From a virus, in the IMG/VR virus record IMGVR_UViG_3300028666_000017, positions 1 through 38,481 of that record: a stretch of DNA of 38,481 bases, one strand, 5' to 3'. Made by a program: the position numbers and the translations under genes. Shown piece after piece: positions 21,100-36,169 of this stretch. Position 1 is the first letter of the stretch; each line of letters starts with the position of its first letter. A model generated the notes under the pieces. That model was not told where the DNA came from, did no database searches, and worked only from the letters and a program-made list of their open reading frames with translations.

Positions 21100-21213
21100 A
21101 TGAATCATATCTTGATGGGTCTAGGATTGTCGTTGGTACATATTGCTGAGGTTGCTATTGGGGTAATCTGTTCATCAATCATATTGGATCTTATATATAG
21201 TAAGGATGAATAA
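21100..21213 (+). CDS. Mini membrane protein (37 aa)
   Basis: ATG at 21100 follows AGGAG. Sequence MNHILMGLGLSLVHIAEVAI continues GVICSSIILDLIYSKDE: one transmembrane helix with a single acidic residue inside. Its stop overlaps the next start (TAATG). Confidence 0.5.
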   Translation: MNHILMGLGLSLVHIAEVAIGVICSSIILDLIYSKDE

Positions 21214-21716
21214 TGAAACAAACTAATGAAGGTAATAATTGGATATACTGCAGTGCCGGCAATAATAAAGATATGCCTACTGAACCTACACGATATGATA
21301 TTGAAGCAGCCTTGATAGCTTTGATTAAAGCTGAGGTGCCAATGTCGAGCCAAATGGTAGGCGAAAAAAGATATGGTTGGGCACCGATTAGAGATTGGTA
21401 TGCGCTTTTTATTGCACATTCAAAAGCAAAACTAATAAGAAAATGCCAAGGATTCATACCAAAAAAAATATATCCAGATAAAACCAATATATTATTTAAT
21501 GAAATAGGCTCAATTGCAAACTTCAGAATATTCGTTAGAGAGAATAATGATGAAGATCTCTTTCTTATTAATAAATCTAACCTCAATCGTAAAATCTTTA
21601 GTATGATATGTATGCCTATCGGGCCAGATGAACTAACAATAACCTATTGTGGTCAATTACGTGAAGCTAAATATTGGGATGATAGAGTTGAATTATTATA
21701 TACGGATCATAAATAA
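21213..21716 (+). CDS. Hypothetical protein (167 aa)
   Basis: Coupled to the mini membrane gene by TAATG. An N-terminal polar stretch is followed by a helix DIEAALIALIKAEVP and GWAPIRDWYALFIAHSKAKL. The C-terminal half has mixed strands. No motif recognised. It is followed by a short repeated junction (21702-21727) and then the RNA ligase. Confidence 0.6.
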   Translation: MKQTNEGNNWIYCSAGNNKDMPTEPTRYDIEAALIALIKAEVPMSSQMVGEKRYGWAPIRDWYALFIAHSKAKLIRKCQGFIPKKIYPDKTNILFNEIGSIANFRIFVRENNDEDLFLINKSNLNRKIFSMICMPIGPDELTITYCGQLREAKYWDDRVELLYTDHK

Positions 21717-24309: not shown

Positions 24310-24563
24310 TGCTCTTTCTAATACTCTTCTTTACCCTCTCTCTTTATGCCGCCCCTTCATTCGATGAACAAGAATATGCAGCTCTTATGCAAGCGTGTAG
24401 ATTCATACGAGGACAGCAATTAGCTATAGCCGATTACAGGATGTCATTAGACGATGCAATTGAGTGCTCCATAACCAACTACCTTAGAATGGTAAATAGT
24501 GCCGCTGCGTTGAAATTACTGGGTGATCTGAAAGATATAGATTTTAAGATGGGTGTGCGATGA
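24309..24563 (+). CDS. Small exported helical protein (84 aa)
   Basis: The start at 24309 overlaps the preceding stop (TGATG); an in-frame ATG at 24291 lies inside that gene. Residues 1-15 (MLFLILFFTLSLYAA) form a signal peptide with likely cleavage after YAA. The mature part is helical with two Cys (QACRFIRGQQ and AIECSITN). Periplasmic role unknown. Confidence 0.62.
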   Translation: MLFLILFFTLSLYAAPSFDEQEYAALMQACRFIRGQQLAIADYRMSLDDAIECSITNYLRMVNSAAALKLLGDLKDIDFKMGVR

Positions 24564-24769
24564 ATCAATGCGAAAAATGTGATTCTTTTATATTAGATAA
24601 ATATAATAATCGATCTGACTTAAAAACTTTCTTTCTTTGTAATGATTGTTATAAAAAAGCATCAATAATTTCGGATTTAGCAGTTTCACATTGGATTAAT
24701 GAATATAAAAAAGATTGCCAATCCAAGTGTAAACTCTGCGATGCACGGGAAGAATGGAATAAAGAATGA
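24560..24769 (+). CDS. Small zinc-ribbon-like protein with repeated tail (69 aa)
   Basis: Starts NQCEKCDSFIL and has LCNDCYKK, so two CxxC pairs about 25 residues apart. It ends with CQSKCKLCDAREEWNKE, encoded by the 54-base repeat shared exactly with the gene at 25965. A tail shared by otherwise unrelated proteins indicates module swapping. Confidence 0.65.
   Translation: MNQCEKCDSFILDKYNNRSDLKTFFLCNDCYKKASIISDLAVSHWINEYKKDCQSKCKLCDAREEWNKE
24716..24769 (+). repeat. 54-bp cassette-junction repeat, copy A
   Basis: Identical to 26154-26207. It encodes the cysteine tail CQSKCKLCDAREEWNKE and ends GGAATAAAGAATGA, which holds the stop and the start of the next gene. Shorter versions of the last 20 bases occur at 24961-24980 and 25731-25750. 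Confidence 0.92.
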
Positions 24770-24990
24770 ATGAAGAAATATTGAGAATGATATTAAGAGA
24801 ATTAGAAAATTTTAATGAGCATCTCGCAGAAATAGCAGATACCAATGCAAATTCTATAAAATTGCTTCAAGATAAACTTGATGAGAAACTTGAGAATGTA
24901 AAATGTATTACTAAAGAAGTAAATACTGGTCATTGTTGCGGACAAGAAGTTATGCGCAAGAAGAATGGAATAAAGAATGAATTGGTTTAA
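24766..24990 (+). CDS. Coiled-coil protein (74 aa)
   Basis: Begins in the 54-base repeat. Residues 1-50 form a long charged helix (EEILRMILRELENFNEHLAE). The end contains HCCGQEV and KKNGIKNELV, the last encoded by a partial junction repeat read in another frame. Function unknown. Confidence 0.58.
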   Translation: MNEEILRMILRELENFNEHLAEIADTNANSIKLLQDKLDEKLENVKCITKEVNTGHCCGQEVMRKKNGIKNELV

Positions 24991-25210
24991 ATGTTCTGAG
25001 CGATTGCCAGAAAAAGAGGGTGAATATTTAGTTCAAACTCAAGATGATAGAAATCAATGCTTTTGTCTTCATGTATGGCAAAAGAATAGTAATAAAAAGG
25101 CAAAAAAATCATTCGAATGGACACGTTGTTTACAAGAAAGTTATGATTTTCCTTATGAATGTGGAAAAGTAACATATTGGATGCCAATTACACAACCAGG
25201 AAAAGAATGA
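24977..25210 (+). CDS. DUF551 protein (77 aa)
   Basis: Opening MNWFKCSERLPEKEGEYLVQ and closing VTYWMPITQPGKE match the DUF551 start and end boxes. The middle is basic with two Cys. It starts 14 bases inside the previous gene, at the partial junction repeat. Function unknown. Confidence 0.78.
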   Translation: MNWFKCSERLPEKEGEYLVQTQDDRNQCFCLHVWQKNSNKKAKKSFEWTRCLQESYDFPYECGKVTYWMPITQPGKE

Positions 25211-25398
25211 AAATATTACTTGAAGAAAAAGATTTTAGAATTTGTTATGAAGATCAAGATGATAATGAAATATATATCGTTAAAAAAAAAGGACTTGGTA
25301 ATAAAAGAGTCCGTGAATTAAATAGAATATTACGTGATTATAAATTGAAGAATGAAAATGAATATAAATGTGTTCATTCATGTGAAGATTGTAAATGA
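25207..25398 (+). CDS. Hypothetical small protein (63 aa)
   Basis: The ATG at 25207 forms ATGA with the previous stop; an earlier in-frame start at 25159 lies inside the DUF551 gene. Strand-rich N-terminus, basic helix (KRVRELNRILRDYKLKNE), and a cysteine tail CVHSCEDCK. Function unknown. Confidence 0.55.
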   Translation: MKILLEEKDFRICYEDQDDNEIYIVKKKGLGNKRVRELNRILRDYKLKNENEYKCVHSCEDCK

Positions 25399-25478
25399 GA
25401 AAAATATATAAATTTTGTTTTAAGATGTTCTTTTGTTTTTCACAAAAAAGATTTAATCAAATTATGGATAAAAAATGA
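25395..25478 (+). CDS. Mini protein (27 aa)
   Basis: ATGA overlaps at both ends. MRKIYKFCFKMFFCFSQKRF and FNQIMDKK: a short basic, aromatic peptide, possibly membrane-associated. It may be a translated linker rather than a functional gene. Confidence 0.35.
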   Translation: MRKIYKFCFKMFFCFSQKRFNQIMDKK

Positions 25479-25711
25479 AGTTGCATTGGATGCATGTAAA
25501 AGACAAAAAACCTGAAGAAGAAAAAGAAGTATTTGTTCTTTTCGGGGAAGACAAAATTTCATATTCAGAAGATAATCCAACAATAAATATTGGAAGATGG
25601 GTTTCTGGACGTTTTTTAGATGCAGATAATCAACAACTATTTTCCAATTATTGGCATCCTATAGTTTGTAATTGCAAAAGTAGAAATAGACATAAATGCA
25701 AATCGCCTTGA
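25475..25711 (+). CDS. DUF551-like protein, paralogue of the intron 1 protein (78 aa)
   Basis: Starts MKLHWMHVKDKKPEEEKEVF and ends its core with GRWVSGRFLDADNQQLFSNY then WHPI. The same order (KDQKP, FVL, ARWIEDYGFLDANDQL, SNFWYPLP) is found in the protein inside the first capsid-gene intron (34632-34976). The two are clear relatives. It is followed by a 39-base decayed junction repeat (25712-25750) that no longer joins the frame. Confidence 0.75.
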   Translation: MKLHWMHVKDKKPEEEKEVFVLFGEDKISYSEDNPTINIGRWVSGRFLDADNQQLFSNYWHPIVCNCKSRNRHKCKSP

Positions 25712-25750
25712 AAACTCTGTGATGCGCGAGAAGAATGGAATAAAGAATGA
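25712..25750 (+). repeat. Decayed cassette-junction repeat
   Basis: Matches the last 39 bases of the 54-base repeat with a few changes; the frame of the cysteine tail is cut off from the gene before it, but the start for the next gene is kept. Confidence 0.75.
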
Positions 25751-25968
25751 AATTATTAATATTATTATTTATTCCATTTTCATTATCAGCTCAACTTTCA
25801 ACAAGATTTATATCTTCAGAGTCAGGATCGAATCTAAGTTATGCAATAAACAAATTTATTAAAGGTAAAAAGATAATATCTGTTGGTTATGCTGCTACTG
25901 CTTATAAAATGTATGGACCTACATGTTTTGAATATTCTGCTTTAATAGTTTATGAGGATAAAGAATGA
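25747..25968 (+). CDS. Small exported protein (73 aa)
   Basis: Signal peptide MKLLILLFIPFSLSAQ (cleavage near LSA-QL), then a polar mature part with Ser, Tyr and Gly. It starts at a junction repeat. Function unknown; one of at least four exported mini proteins in this genome. Confidence 0.62.
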   Translation: MKLLILLFIPFSLSAQLSTRFISSESGSNLSYAINKFIKGKKIISVGYAATAYKMYGPTCFEYSALIVYEDKE

Positions 25969-26207
25969 ATTGGGTCAAATGTTCTGAACGATTGCCGGAA
26001 GAATTCGAAAAAGTATTAGTATATGACGAAGAACTTGGAATCAATTCTTTAGAAGTAGTTGAATATAGAAGTGAATTTAATAGTAATTTTTATGGTTATA
26101 TTGATCCAACATATTGGATTAAGTTGAAAGATATTACTTTGCCGATTCATAAATGCCAATCCAAGTGTAAACTCTGCGATGCACGGGAAGAATGGAATAA
26201 AGAATGA
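25965..26207 (+). CDS. DUF551 protein with repeated cysteine tail (80 aa)
   Basis: Opening MNWVKCSERLPEEFEKVLVY is close to that of the 24977 gene, and TYWIKLKDITLP is the closing box. It ends CQSKCKLCDAREEWNKE through the exact 54-base repeat. Function unknown. Confidence 0.78.
   Translation: MNWVKCSERLPEEFEKVLVYDEELGINSLEVVEYRSEFNSNFYGYIDPTYWIKLKDITLPIHKCQSKCKLCDAREEWNKE
26154..26207 (+). repeat. 54-bp cassette-junction repeat, copy B
   Basis: Identical to 24716-24769 although the genes before it differ, which shows recent exchange of the tail plus junction. Confidence 0.92.
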
Positions 26208-31425: not shown

Positions 31426-31689
31426 ACATGAACATGAACAGATAGAACCATTTTCTACTTGAGATTCAAGCAATTTAATATAAAATACCCGATCTTCATT
31501 ATTCAGATGATACATAAGACGACATTTAGGACATAATTTTCTTAATGATTCATTATATTCTCTACTAATTCGATATATATTAAAATCGCTTTTGCATGAC
31601 ATGCATCGATCATCACATTGTTTACGTATAGAATGTTTACAATGATAACATTTTGGATCATCATGCGTGAGAATATTAGGAAGTTTCAT
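31420..31689 (-). CDS. Cysteine-rich zinc-binding-type protein (89 aa)
   Basis: CYHCKHSIRKQCDDRCMSCK, then CPKCRLMYH and a CSCSC end provide many Cys pairs; two zinc ribbons are likely. It starts at the end of the GroEL gene (adjacent stop/start) and is the last gene of the chaperonin operon. Function unknown. It resembles the array fingers in style, not in detail. Confidence 0.65.
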   Translation of the reverse strand: MKLPNILTHDDPKCYHCKHSIRKQCDDRCMSCKSDFNIYRISREYNESLRKLCPKCRLMYHLNNEDRVFYIKLLESQVENGSICSCSCK

Positions 31690-33335
31690 TAATACATTCC
31701 ACCAGGTATTTGATTTACCGGCCCCATACGTCCAAGTTTACTATCAGTAGATTCTTCAGGGAGATCTACAACTGCAACTTCAGTCGTAAGCAATAATCCC
31801 GCAATAGATGCAGCATTTTGAATGGCGCAACGAGTTACCTTTACAGGATCAATGATACCAGCGGCAACCATATCAACATATACATTGTTAGCAGCATCAT
31901 ATCCCTGATTACCCACTCTATTGAGTACTGATTTGATGACCCATGATTCATCTTCACCACAATTACGCACGATAATGCGTAGTGGTTCTTCCAATGCTTT
32001 GGAGATGATCTGAGCACCAAGCTTTTCATCTTCATTGTCTAGCGTCTTAATAAGGTCTTTAAGACACTTTTGAGCACGGAGTAATGCAATACCACCACCA
32101 GGAACAATACCTTCTTCTACGGCTGCTCTTGTTGCTGATAATGCATCATCGATACGATCTTTCTTCTCTTTCATTGCCGTTTCAGTAGCTGCACCTGCTC
32201 GGATGACACCAATGCCACCGGTTAACTTAGCCAGACGTTCACGGAAATTGCCACGACTATAATCCGAAGTCTCATTGTCTAACTGTGCTTTGATGAGATT
32301 GATGCGTTCTTGTACTCTTTCAGGCGATGCTTCACCTTCAATAATGGTGCAATTGTCACGAGTTACGACAACACGTTTAGCTCTGCCAAGATAATCTATA
32401 GAGATATTCTCAAGTTGTAGACCAACTTCAGGTGATATCATCTGTCCGCCGGTTAATGCAGCGATATCTTCTAGTACCTGACGTTTGCGTTCACCAAATA
32501 ACGGCGTTTTAACGGCAACACAGTTAAGGGTATTACGTATGCGATTGACCACAAGAGTACTTAACGCATCACCTTCAACATCATCAGCAATAATCAATAA
32601 GGCTTTATTGTTACGGGCAAACAGTTCCAACAGTCCTACAATATTCTTGAGATTGTTGATCTTGCCATCATAGATAAGTATGGATACATCTTTGAGTTCG
32701 GTTTCCATCTTTTGTTTATCGGTCACAAAGTAAGGAGATATCCAACCTCTATCAATTTGCATACCTTCTACGATATCCAATTCATCAACAATGCCTTTAG
32801 CTTCTTCTACCGTTATTACCCCTTCTCTGCCTACTTTTTTCATAGCAGTAGCAATCAATTTGCCAATTTCTACATCGCCATTGGCAGAGATAGTAGCAAT
32901 CTGTTGAATATGTTCATCAGTGCTTACCGGTATGGACTGGTGCTTAATATGTTCGGCAACGGCAATAACTGCTTTATCAATGCCTCTTTTCAGACTGATT
33001 GGACGTGATCCTGCTGTTACATATTTAAGTCCATCACGATATATAGCCTGAGCAAGCAAAGTTGCCGTGGTAGTACCATCACCTGCGACATCGGCAGTTT
33101 TCTGGGCTACTTCTTTTACCATTTGAGCACCCATGTTTTCCAAACGATCTTTAAGATCGATACGCTTAGCAACGCTAACGCCATCTTTAGTAATGATTGG
33201 AGTTCCATAGGGGTTATCAATAACAACATTACGACCAGAAGGCCCAAGAGTTGCTTTAACGGCATCTGCAAGGATATCAACACCTCTTTTAATTCTGTCA
33301 CGTGCTTCCGCATTAAATACGATCATTTTAGCCAT
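31689..33335 (-). CDS. groL: Chaperonin GroEL (548 aa)
   Basis: Complete GroEL of the same length as the E. coli protein. It folds proteins in a double-ring chamber with ATP. ATP-site residues are intact: [12 protein letters not shown] near 30-40, TKDG (Asp 51), AGDGTTTA (Asp 86), and [14 protein letters not shown]...GGG with the catalytic Asp equivalent to 398. The helical apical-domain segments are present. The C-terminus is short, ending IPGGMY rather than a long GGM repeat. No truncation or frameshift is seen. It is in an operon with GroES, beside scaffold and capsid genes, so folding of the capsid protein is the likely job. Confidence 0.96.
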
Positions 33336-33600
33336 TGATTATTCCTTCACCCGTTATTTTTGCATCAAAAAATGCCTTAGTTACTTCTATCTCTTTTTCA
33401 TATTCTTTTTCGGCTTGAATCATACTTTTAGCTTTAATTTCCTCGATATACTTAGATCTTCTCATCATATGTTCAAGTAAAAAGTTAACATCATTGATAA
33501 AAACCGTTTGAAATTCCATATCAGTCCATGTAGTTGGATCAAAGTCTGGACTGATAGTTTTGAATGCTCGTTGCAAAGTTTTACGATACTTATTTTCCAT
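33328..33600 (-). CDS. Hypothetical protein between GroES and GroEL (90 aa)
   Basis: Overlaps the GroES stop (TAATG) and the GroEL start by 8 bases, so it is an integral operon member. Charged and mostly helical ([20 protein letters not shown], then [31 protein letters not shown]). Host groES and groEL genes are normally adjacent with nothing between. It may be a chaperonin partner or substrate adaptor; no family recognised. Confidence 0.65.
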
Positions 33601-33881
33601 TATTCGACCTCTATAGCTAATATCTCTTGCTCAGTTACTACTACGGTGTGTTTATCGCCCAGTTCCACTCCGGAATATCTACCAATCCATACTTTATCGC
33701 CGATTTTGGCAGTCAATGGCACTCTACCATTATCCCATCTACCAGGCCCGACAGCTTCTACTCTTCCTGAACGAATATCAGGCGTTGCGCTTTCAGGAAT
33801 AATAAGACCATGTTTAGTCTTTTCTTCTTGTGCGTCTAGCTTTATTAGTATCTTGTCGCTTATTGGTTTGTATTTTGTCAT
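33600..33881 (-). CDS. groS: Co-chaperonin GroES (93 aa)
   Basis: Forms the lid of the GroEL chamber. The core KYKPISDKILIKLDAQEEKT is followed by the mobile loop HGLIIPESA (near residues 24-32), whose hydrophobic LII contacts GroEL. GRVEAVGPGRWDNGRVPL, then KIGDKVWIGRYSG, and the final VTEQEILAIEVE strand are typical. Length matches bacterial GroES (about 95 aa), unlike phage T4 gp31 (111 aa). AAGGAG lies upstream. Confidence 0.93.
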   Translation of the reverse strand: MTKYKPISDKILIKLDAQEEKTKHGLIIPESATPDIRSGRVEAVGPGRWDNGRVPLTAKIGDKVWIGRYSGVELGDKHTVVVTEQEILAIEVE

Positions 33882-34305: not shown

Positions 34306-34557
34306 ATGTCAAATATAGTAACGACAGGGAATTTACCACCACCAGTACAACAAAGTTTCAACTATAAACTGTTGGCTATTAAACTTCCTGATTTTATTCA
34401 CACTATTCCTGCTGCACTCAAAGAGATGCCACGTAATGGTGGTACAACCATGCGCTTCCGTAGATTTGATCGTCTACCACCTGCTCTAGCTCCTCTTGGT
34501 AATACCGGTGCACCAATTCCACCTACCCCATTAAATGCAACGGATATCGATAAACAT
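34306..34557 (+). CDS. Major capsid protein, exon 1
   Basis: 84 codons, N-terminal arm to NATDIDKH. If unspliced, the frame continues 15 codons into the insert and stops (…SLIDLEAVA). Confidence 0.78.
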
Positions 34558-36169
34558 TGTGTCGATATAAAATCTTCTCTGATAGACTTGGAAGCGGTAG
34601 CGTAAAGACGATCGTGACAAGGGGCAAGATTATGCAATGGATTAATTGGATAAACATAAAAGATCAAAAACCTAACAAAGAAGAATATGTATTTGTTCTT
34701 CAATTTTCTACAAATCCTATACTTTCTACTCCAGAAACAATTGATCCTGATATTAGAGTTGCAAGATGGATAGAAGACTATGGTTTTTTAGATGCTAATG
34801 ATCAATTAATGCATTCTAATTTTTGGTATCCATTACCTAATCAGCCTGAACGTAGCAAGCGAGAAGACTGTGATAGATGTACAAAATTACAAGAACCTAT
34901 TAATGGTTGTTGTTATACAGAAATATCACAGATGCGGTGCTCTGAACATTGTGGAAACACAGTGAGGGATAAGTAGAGAAAATCCCCGCCTCTTAAGAGG
35001 TCATAAAAGTAACAGATAGGCAAAAATCGATTTCTATGGACAATGGATCGGCATTGTCGATCAAGTCTCATTGCAAAACCAAGATCCAGTGCTTAATGAG
35101 GCTGCTAAGTTACTCGGGATTGCGCTCAGAGAAACAGAAGACACTCTCACCCGTAATATGCTCGCCGGCACAGCTACCGCAATAAATTGCGAAGGCGGCC
35201 AGAATGGCGATAATCCTACTGAGATCACTCAAGCAGATACGGACTTCTTTACTCAAACTCTCTTGGGTAATGATGCTCGTTGCATGCTGGATACAATACC
35301 TGGTGAAAACCGATTCGGTAAACTTTGTGCCGAATTAAAATCTTCTCTGATAGACTTGGAAGCGGTAGCGTAAAGACGATCGTGACAAGGGGCAAGATTA
35401 TGCAGAAATTATGTACAAATTGTTTTATGAAAATCGATTCATGTAAAAATGAAACATTTAATAAATTATTTACTATTGAATCTGATAAAAAAATAATCTA
35501 TTTAAATGAAGATTTTCAAAAACATGATCATGTTTTGTGTGACAATCAGCCTGAACGTAGCAAGCGAGAAGACTCAAATTGTTTAGCTCCTGGTAAATGC
35601 CCGTCGGTAGAAAATAGTACTGAATGGCTTTGCGAGGCATGTTTTTACGATTGAGATGCGGTGCTCTGAACATTGTGGAAACACAGTGAGGGATAAGTAG
35701 AGAAAATCCCCGCCTAAAAGTCTCGCAACTGCGCGACAATTAGGTCACATAAGTAACAGATCTGACAGGTCCAGTACGTGATGCATTCTTCGGATTATCC
35801 CATACTGATATGACCAGTTCGCTGGTAGCAGCAGGAGCAATCCAGAAAGCACAATATCCTAATCCAACTCGTCCGCTGGAAAGCGAATGGGCAGCATTAG
35901 GCAATATTCGTTTTTGTATCTCATCTATTGGTTCAATTACTCCATTTGACAGCGCACAAGGTGCTAACGTCTATAACAACTTTATTGTTGCGATGGAAGC
36001 CTATGCGATTGTAAAACAAGATGGTGCTTTTGCCCAATTCTTATATAAGCCAGCGCAATTCTCCGATGCGTTGATGCAGACAGTATCTTGCGGTTGGAGA
36101 ACCGCTATGGTGCCACGCATCCTGAATGACCAATGGTTATTAAATGGACGCGCAACGCTGCCTGTTTAA
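34306..36169 (+). CDS. Major capsid protein, N4-gp56-type, interrupted by two introns
   Basis: The gene cannot be read straight through: it lies in three pieces (34306-34557, 35020-35325, 35765-36169, about 1 base uncertainty). Joined, they give one 320-residue protein. Family features: RFRRFDRLPPALAPL in exon 1, QDPVLNEAAKLLGIALRETE and DTLTRNMLA in exon 2, GPVRDAFFGLSHTDMTSSL, KAQYPNP, ISSIGSITPF and GWRTAMVPRILNDQWL in exon 3. These occur in this order in N4-gp56 capsid proteins, of about this length. Each exon alone lacks the rest of the fold. Splicing, or another way of skipping the inserts, is therefore needed for an essential protein. GGAG precedes the ATG. Confidence 0.85.
34558..35019 (+). 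other. Intron-like element 1 in the capsid gene (about 462 bp)
   Basis: Inserted after codon 84 of the capsid gene. It shares four conserved blocks with the second element: about 34567-34636, 34839-34869, 34931-34991 and 34999-35017. Foldable parts include GGGC/GCCT with an inner GATT/AATC stem closing the inner gene (P4/P5-like), AGCA/TGCT around the second variable part (P6-like), TGTG-GAAA-CACA, GGGAT/ATCCC, a terminal stem CCTC/GAGG, and a long-range GTGAC (34614-34618)/GTCAT (35000-35004) pair. Ends can be placed so that the upstream exon ends in T and the insert ends in G, as in group I introns. The P3/P7 core was not identified with certainty. Confidence 0.65.
34632..34976 (+). CDS. 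DUF551-like protein encoded within intron 1 (114 aa)
   Basis: ATG 34632 follows AAGGGGC, which is also part of the predicted intron stem. The sequence INWINIKDQKPNKEEYVFVL, then RVARWIEDYGFLDANDQL and SNFWYPLP, is related to the array gene at 25475. The last 45 residues include NQPERSKRED, encoded by the conserved intron block, and several Cys (CDRCTKL, CCYTE, CSEHCG). No LAGLIDADG, GIY-YIG or HNH motif is visible, so it is not a recognisable homing endonuclease. An in-frame TTG at the exon border would extend it by 25 residues. Confidence 0.65.
   Translation: MQWINWINIKDQKPNKEEYVFVLQFSTNPILSTPETIDPDIRVARWIEDYGFLDANDQLMHSNFWYPLPNQPERSKREDCDRCTKLQEPINGCCYTEISQMRCSEHCGNTVRDK
35020..35325 (+). 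CDS. Major capsid protein, exon 2
   Basis: 102 codons from AKIDFYGQWIGIVDQVSLQN to ENRFGKL. There is no start codon with a ribosome site at its beginning, and the preceding in-frame codon is a stop (TAG), so it is not an independent gene. Confidence 0.78.
35326..35764 (+). other. Intron-like element 2 in the capsid gene (about 439 bp)
   Basis: A relative of element 1, inserted after codon 186. The 5' block (35335-35404), the 31-base block (35544-35574), the 61-base block (35655-35715) and the 3' block (35743-35761) match those of element 1 almost perfectly, while the two parts between differ completely. The terminal hairpin is enlarged (CCTAA/TTAGG around an inner GTC-CGC/GCG-GAC stem), and the long-range pair is GTGAC/GTCAC, one base stronger than in element 1. 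The target TAAAC-T-T resembles that of element 1. Confidence 0.65.
35400..35654 (+). CDS. Cysteine-rich protein encoded within intron 2 (84 aa)
   Basis: ATG 35400 follows AAGGGGC as in intron 1. Starts QKLCTNCFMKIDSCKNETFN; later DNQPERSKRED comes from the shared intron block, and CLAPGKCPS and WLCEACFYD give further Cys pairs. Four to six Cys could form a zinc ribbon, as in array proteins at 24560 and 26204. No nuclease motif recognised. The N-terminal part is unrelated to the intron 1 protein, so the inner genes were exchanged within a fixed intron frame. Confidence 0.6.
   Translation: MQKLCTNCFMKIDSCKNETFNKLFTIESDKKIIYLNEDFQKHDHVLCDNQPERSKREDSNCLAPGKCPSVENSTEWLCEACFYD
35765..36169 (+). 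CDS. Major capsid protein, exon 3
   Basis: 134 codons from TGPVRDAFFGLSHTD to the stop. An internal ATG (35810, DMTSSL) has no good ribosome site and would drop conserved residues, so expression by splicing is preferred. Confidence 0.78.
   Translation, partial: TGPVRDAFFGLSHTDMTSSLVAAGAIQKAQYPNPTRPLESEWAALGNIRFCISSIGSITPFDSAQGANVYNNFIVAMEAYAIVKQDGAFAQFLYKPAQFSDALMQTVSCGWRTAMVPRILNDQWLLNGRATLPV

Follow-up and report, generated by a model that had tools for sequence, protein, structure and literature searches.

Putative group I self-splicing introns in the split major capsid gene of a phage lineage, with small reading frames running through the ribozyme core

Introns in phage capsid genes, even several per gene, are already known (PMC3706429, PMC7886860). 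In LittleE, one of the Cluster J mycobacteriophages, the capsid gene carries an intron for which both spliced mRNA and protein were demonstrated (Pope 2013, PMC3706429), and in crAss-like phages capsid gene fragments are separated by group I intron segments, with five fragments in one case (Yutin 2021, PMC7886860). In Bastillevirinae, 32 of 45 introns are associated with homing nucleases, and that survey is not reported to include one in a capsid gene (PMC11878797). The LittleE and crAss-like precedents temper the claim, made in an initial sequence-only reading of the locus described here, that such insertions are out of the ordinary for a capsid gene.

We analyzed a window of 38,481 bases, namely the entire viral contig IMGVR_UViG_3300028666_000017, which carries a 127-nt repeat at each end, the pattern that a complete, circular assembly would give. 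A single open frame is absent from its capsid gene (34306-36169), which consists of three coding pieces on the same strand and in the correct order, separated by stops and shifts of frame (Table 1). Once joined, the pieces encode a 316-residue protein (316 codons plus stop) matching Pfam Phage_capsid_4 (E 1.6e-7), and fourteen relatives of this protein were identified in IMG/VR, several of which are uninterrupted and ~60% identical. Because these intronless homologues read TAVDIDAKI and DKFGTAPV, with no residues between the join partners, we placed the joins at 34551/35020 and 35319/35765, giving the junctions DID/AKI and RFG/TGP in the window protein. Possible 3' ends near the conserved GTAACA were in addition all scored against the capsid profile, and by this score only the best ends were 35019 for intron 1 (79.8 bits, runner-up 73.3) and 35764 for intron 2 (66.7 bits, runner-up 59.8). 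In a close relative (L013), 94% identical to the window capsid over residues 132-315, the second intron site is empty.

Exon order, joined protein and intronless homologues thus bear out the proposal of the sequence-only reading that the capsid gene lies in three exons with two intron-like inserts, and not in one continuous frame. Its right boundaries were also correct, with exons starting at 35020 and 35765, whereas the left ones (34558 and 35326) had been set 6 nt too far to the right; homologues and the 3'-end scan place the intron starts at 34552 and 35320. As a consequence of this shift, the frame comprises 316 and not 320 codons, and the junction peptides read DIDAKIDF and FGTGPVR in place of DKHAKIDF and GKLTGPVR, in which KH and KL stem from the boundary error. 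We also checked the record for a second intact capsid gene and found none, the sole other match being a partial capsid-like ORF (21213-21716, +, 167 aa). Over its first ~130 residues, this ORF is similar to the central part of the capsid protein (30% identity, E 7e-18), which makes it a capsid-derived fragment located elsewhere in the genome.

The minus strand of the window also contains a GroEL-like ORF (31689-33335, 548 aa) and a GroES-like ORF (33600-33881, 93 aa). The former is 55% identical to GroEL in a Parachlamydia-binned genome, which is too distant for naming a donor.

Table 1. Positions of capsid exons, predicted group I introns, their pairings and internal ORFs (window numbering)
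Feature	Position	Strand	Remarks
Capsid exon 1	34306..34551	+	Ends ...ATDID (GAT); basis: intronless homologues
Predicted group I intron 1	34552..35019	+	468 nt; starts AAAC, ends ...AACAGATAG
Intron 1 P1	34545..34567	+	Exon TATCGAT 34545-34551 / guide GTCGATA 34561-34567; last exon U opposite G; basis: sequence, covariation
Intron 1 P10	34557-34560 with 35020-35023	+	Basis: sequence, covariation
Intron 1 core, 5' half	34573..34625	+	P3 5' 34573-34579; P4 5' 34587-34590; P5 34594-34598/34611-34615; P4 3' 34618-34621; P6 5' 34622-34625
Intron 1 ORF	34632..34976	+	114 aa; begins within P6 loop, 3' of AAGGGG; spans P6', P7, P3', P8 loop
Intron 1 P6 3'; P7 5'; P3 3'	34844-34847; 34852-34857; 34861-34867	+	P7 5' GTAGCA, extra U 34853
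Intron 1 P7 3'; P9 hairpin	34938-34942; 34947-34964	+	P7 3' TGCTC; P9 CATTGTG-GAAA-CACAGTG
Capsid exon 2	35020..35319	+	AKIDF...NRFG; basis: joined protein, homologues, 3'-end scan
Predicted group I intron 2	35320..35764	+	445 nt; starts AAAC, ends ...AACAGATCTG; L013 empty site
Intron 2 P1	35313..35335	+	Exon ATTCGGT 35313-35319 / guide GCCGAAT 35329-35335; basis: sequence, covariation
Intron 2 P10	35324-35328 with 35765-35769	+	Basis: sequence, covariation
Intron 2 ORF	35400..35654	+	84 aa, rich in cysteine; begins within P6 loop, through core into P8 loop
Intron 2 P6 3'; P7 5'; P3 3'	35549-35552; 35557-35562; 35566-35572	+	
Intron 2 P7 3'; P9 hairpin	35662-35666; 35671-35688	+	
Capsid exon 3	35765..36169	+	TGPVR...LPV stop; basis: joined protein, homologues, 3'-end scan

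Three blocks of 90, 31 and 62 nt are identical or nearly so in the two inserts, and the loops between them are unrelated. From the third of these blocks, a 21-nt piece was found in 34 IMG/VR stretches, most of them adjoining capsid-gene exons, and relaxed patterns extended the family to 176 distinct introns in 120 loci, 172 of which lie near capsid-gene exons. Among the four exceptions, one family member (L022, reverse strand, ~1086) sits in an apparent portal gene. The inserts range from 188 to 824 nt and occupy ~45 insertion sites (alignment shifts may in some cases have listed a single site as two), of which 21 are used in two or more loci, with up to five family introns in a single capsid gene copy. 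Searching phage GenBank DNA with intron 1 returned chance matches only; the relaxed P9-region pattern gave no match in bacterial genomes, and the pattern for the canonical P7 form described below hit a single contig. This 39.8-kb contig (L109), binned as a Parachlamydia MAG, has a similarly split capsid gene, and its binning, weak evidence by itself, provides a possible host lead.

From their anatomy, the inserts are very probably group I self-splicing introns, whose removal would restore a normal 316-residue capsid protein. P3, P4, P5, P6, P7, P8 and P9 are present in the canonical order, and the cores of the two window copies are identical over the compared segments. In 65 distinct cores of the family, P3, P4, P6 and P7 were paired in 100% and P9 in 98%, with two-sided changes in each helix, counts which depend on our choice of anchoring for the core segments and on related, hence not independent, sequences. 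P8 was also fully paired, in a register one off the initial choice, and the guanosine-binding pair of P7 was G-C in 69 of 69 cases. As the intron search required a 5' exon U facing a G plus at least four further neighbouring pairs, four of the five P1 pairs adjoining the U•G are a search requirement; all five were formed throughout (325/325, compared to 47% after shuffling) even as the exon sequence varied by site. Independently of this requirement, the intronless homologues place both 5' splice sites of the window at the U. The P1 guide lies 10 nt into the intron, and P10 positions 2-4 were paired in 56, 50 and 44 of 59 introns, versus about 26, 26 and 24 after shuffling. Both window introns terminate in G, as do 110 of the 114 family members with clear 3' ends, these ends having been picked by protein similarity alone.

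The exon frame remains open for 17 codons into each window intron, up to a UAA in the P5 loop (34603-34605 and 35371-35373), and many phase-0 introns of the family show a similar read-in.

The class assignment has to account for an unusual P7, which occurs in two forms in the family: a canonical GACUA/UAGUC and the window type G(U)AGCA/UGCUC, in which a single additional base adjoins the guanosine-binding pair (of 92 cases, 84 have U and 7 have C). The P7 of the T4 td intron resembles the canonical form. The extra U could lower activity, and, together with the invisibility of the window introns to Rfam (no match at gathering or relaxed thresholds, up to E 10), it might be taken to indicate a self-splicing intron of a new class outside group I, an idea which the odd-looking P7 had indeed prompted and which was dismissed once divergent cousins with GACUA/UAGUC were recognized. 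These canonical-P7 introns sit in the same genes as window-type introns (e.g. L027) and match Rfam Intron_gpI (RF00028) with 30.5 bits (E 1.7e-5) and 26.9 bits (E 2e-4), with the R and S motifs aligned; both scores are below the gathering score of 50, and the RF00028 match serves as a detection aid and not as a structural requirement. Since the canonical introns in the same genes match Intron_gpI, we file the family under group I, and with all group I helices in order and covarying, and with the P1 U•G, the terminal G and P10 as further group I marks, we regard a new class as very improbable. Group II marks, namely a GUGYG start, an AY end and domain V, were not found, the introns starting with AAAC and ending with AG or UG, and no Rfam group II match was obtained.

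The inserts might also be read as decayed or inactive introns, or as errors of assembly, within a capsid gene that no longer functions. We find this hardly credible: the identical core type recurs on many independent contigs, far beyond chance, all core pairs are retained in both window copies, and the three exons are all open. Translational bypassing (gp60-like) or programmed frameshifting in place of splicing, which the sequence-only reading had kept as an alternative and which would account for the stops and shifts of frame that separate the exons, can practically be dismissed, as the codons before take-off (GAT, GGT) are unlike those before landing (TAG, CTG) and the inserts vary widely in length across the family, contain a conserved ribozyme core and pair with both exons through P1 and P10. 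Removal at the RNA level, favoured from the outset without naming an intron class, is thus supported by the group I anatomy predicted here.

Unusually, the P6 loop of these introns mostly holds a small ORF rather than a homing endonuclease. Where this loop is long, an ORF with an ATG start begins directly 3' of GGGGCAAG, downstream of AAGGGG. We identified 116 such ORFs (41-167 aa), 114 of which reach the core without a stop and 112 of which enter it in one and the same frame, yielding a common core-encoded tail (QPERSKRED... or QPERLSEKTP...). Grouped by similarity, the heads form 89 families, 86 of which are in the common frame (binomial ~3e-37 for a one-in-three expectation, the families being only approximately independent). 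Loop lengths vary, and the frame has survived the underlying insertions and deletions, which points to selection acting on the protein. Most related head pairs showed dN below dS (0.33 vs 2.4; 0.54 vs 1.3; 0.46 vs 0.79), a pattern that lends weak support to selection at the protein level, given that a few pairs had dN equal to or above dS, that the sequences are short and that dS was in part saturated or undefined.

In the window, the intron 1 ORF ends past P9 with the tail ...MRCSEHCGNTVRDK, and its head resembles a free-standing ORF at 25475-25711 (38% over 65 aa). Neither window ORF had a Pfam match at E 0.01, and hence no endonuclease domain was found; the intron 1 ORF gave weak matches to PHROGs of unknown function and nothing else. 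Elsewhere in the family, some heads match DUF551, and some longer cousin introns carry antisense LAGLIDADG endonucleases. A defence role for the small proteins was considered and found unsupported, the matches being homing endonuclease models plus one weak candidate.

The window further contains an array of small ORFs (24560-26207, +) with several differing heads and a repeated tail (CQSKCKLCDAREEWNKE), tightly packed with stop-start junctions, in a head-plus-constant-tail layout as in the intron ORFs.

We infer the following mechanism. The end of the upstream exon would pair with the intron guide to form P1, the 5' splice site being marked by the U•G, and P10 would form between the adjacent guide bases and the beginning of the downstream exon. 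The P3-P9 core would then bind guanosine in P7, cut 3' of the U and ligate the exons beyond the terminal G. The ribosome-binding-like AAGGGG overlaps P4/P6, and the small ORF, presumably encoding a functional protein, would be read from the P6 loop through P6', P7 and P3', either from the unspliced precursor or from free intron RNA. Translation of the core would compete with its folding, a competition we suggest because reviews report that ORFs overlapping the core require tight control to spare folding (PMC3984707, PMC3073962).

As a more tentative reading, which we hold with more doubt than confidence, the introns may represent swappable cassettes, wherein heads of small accessory proteins are exchanged in frame before the core-encoded tail, a single RNA serves as catalyst and as coding sequence, and the small protein and the capsid mRNA are mutually exclusive products. 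The P7 insertion would be part of the cassette, because the one-nucleotide frame shift would let the ORF continue into a further coding segment within the P8 loop.

With regard to spread, core identity did not differ overall within a gene and at the same site across phages (means 0.75, 0.77 and 0.76), a result that fits homing as well as gene conversion or local copying. The many sites might have been reached with the help of endonucleases acting in trans, by reverse splicing or through gene conversion between cores.

Overall, these results describe a phage lineage in which one ribozyme family has invaded the capsid gene, normally among the most heavily expressed, at some 45 sites. Its introns carry unrelated small proteins in place of endonucleases, and the reading frame is laid over the catalytic core. 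The family thereby offers naturally occurring data on the tolerance of a ribozyme active site, variant P7 included, to a coding role, and on intron spread without an own endonuclease. Rfam and single-frame gene calling overlook the intact capsid gene and the introns alike.

In the abstracts and passages of open-access literature covered, we found no description of this intron family, nor of group I introns with many unrelated non-endonuclease ORFs through the core. The present locus resembles crAss-like phages in its capsid gene of several fragments with group I introns between them (PMC7886860), and Bastillevirinae and Twort phages in having several group I introns within one phage gene (PMC11878797). 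Whereas the crAss-like introns were recognized by their intron endonuclease domains in genomes of 145-192 kb (PMC7886860), the present family belongs to a ~38 kb phage clade and mostly lacks an endonuclease, with varied small ORFs fused to core-encoded tails. As with the LittleE intron, the major capsid gene is targeted, the upstream exon ends in U and the intron ends in G, splicing being deduced here by comparison; LittleE contains a single ~820 bp intron with an antisense LAGLIDADG (PMC3706429), and the window two smaller, endonuclease-free ones. A parallel for the ORF arrangement is offered by the I-TevI-bearing td intron of T4 ('core creep'; Edgell 2011, PMC3073962), in which the P6-loop ORF likewise overlaps the core at P6a/P7. 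This overlap is confined to the last 20 nt of the I-TevI ORF (PMC3073962), whereas the ORFs described here span P6', P7 and P3' and often extend to P9, and, unlike I-TevI, their heads are not endonucleases but fall into 89 families that enter the core in a common frame.
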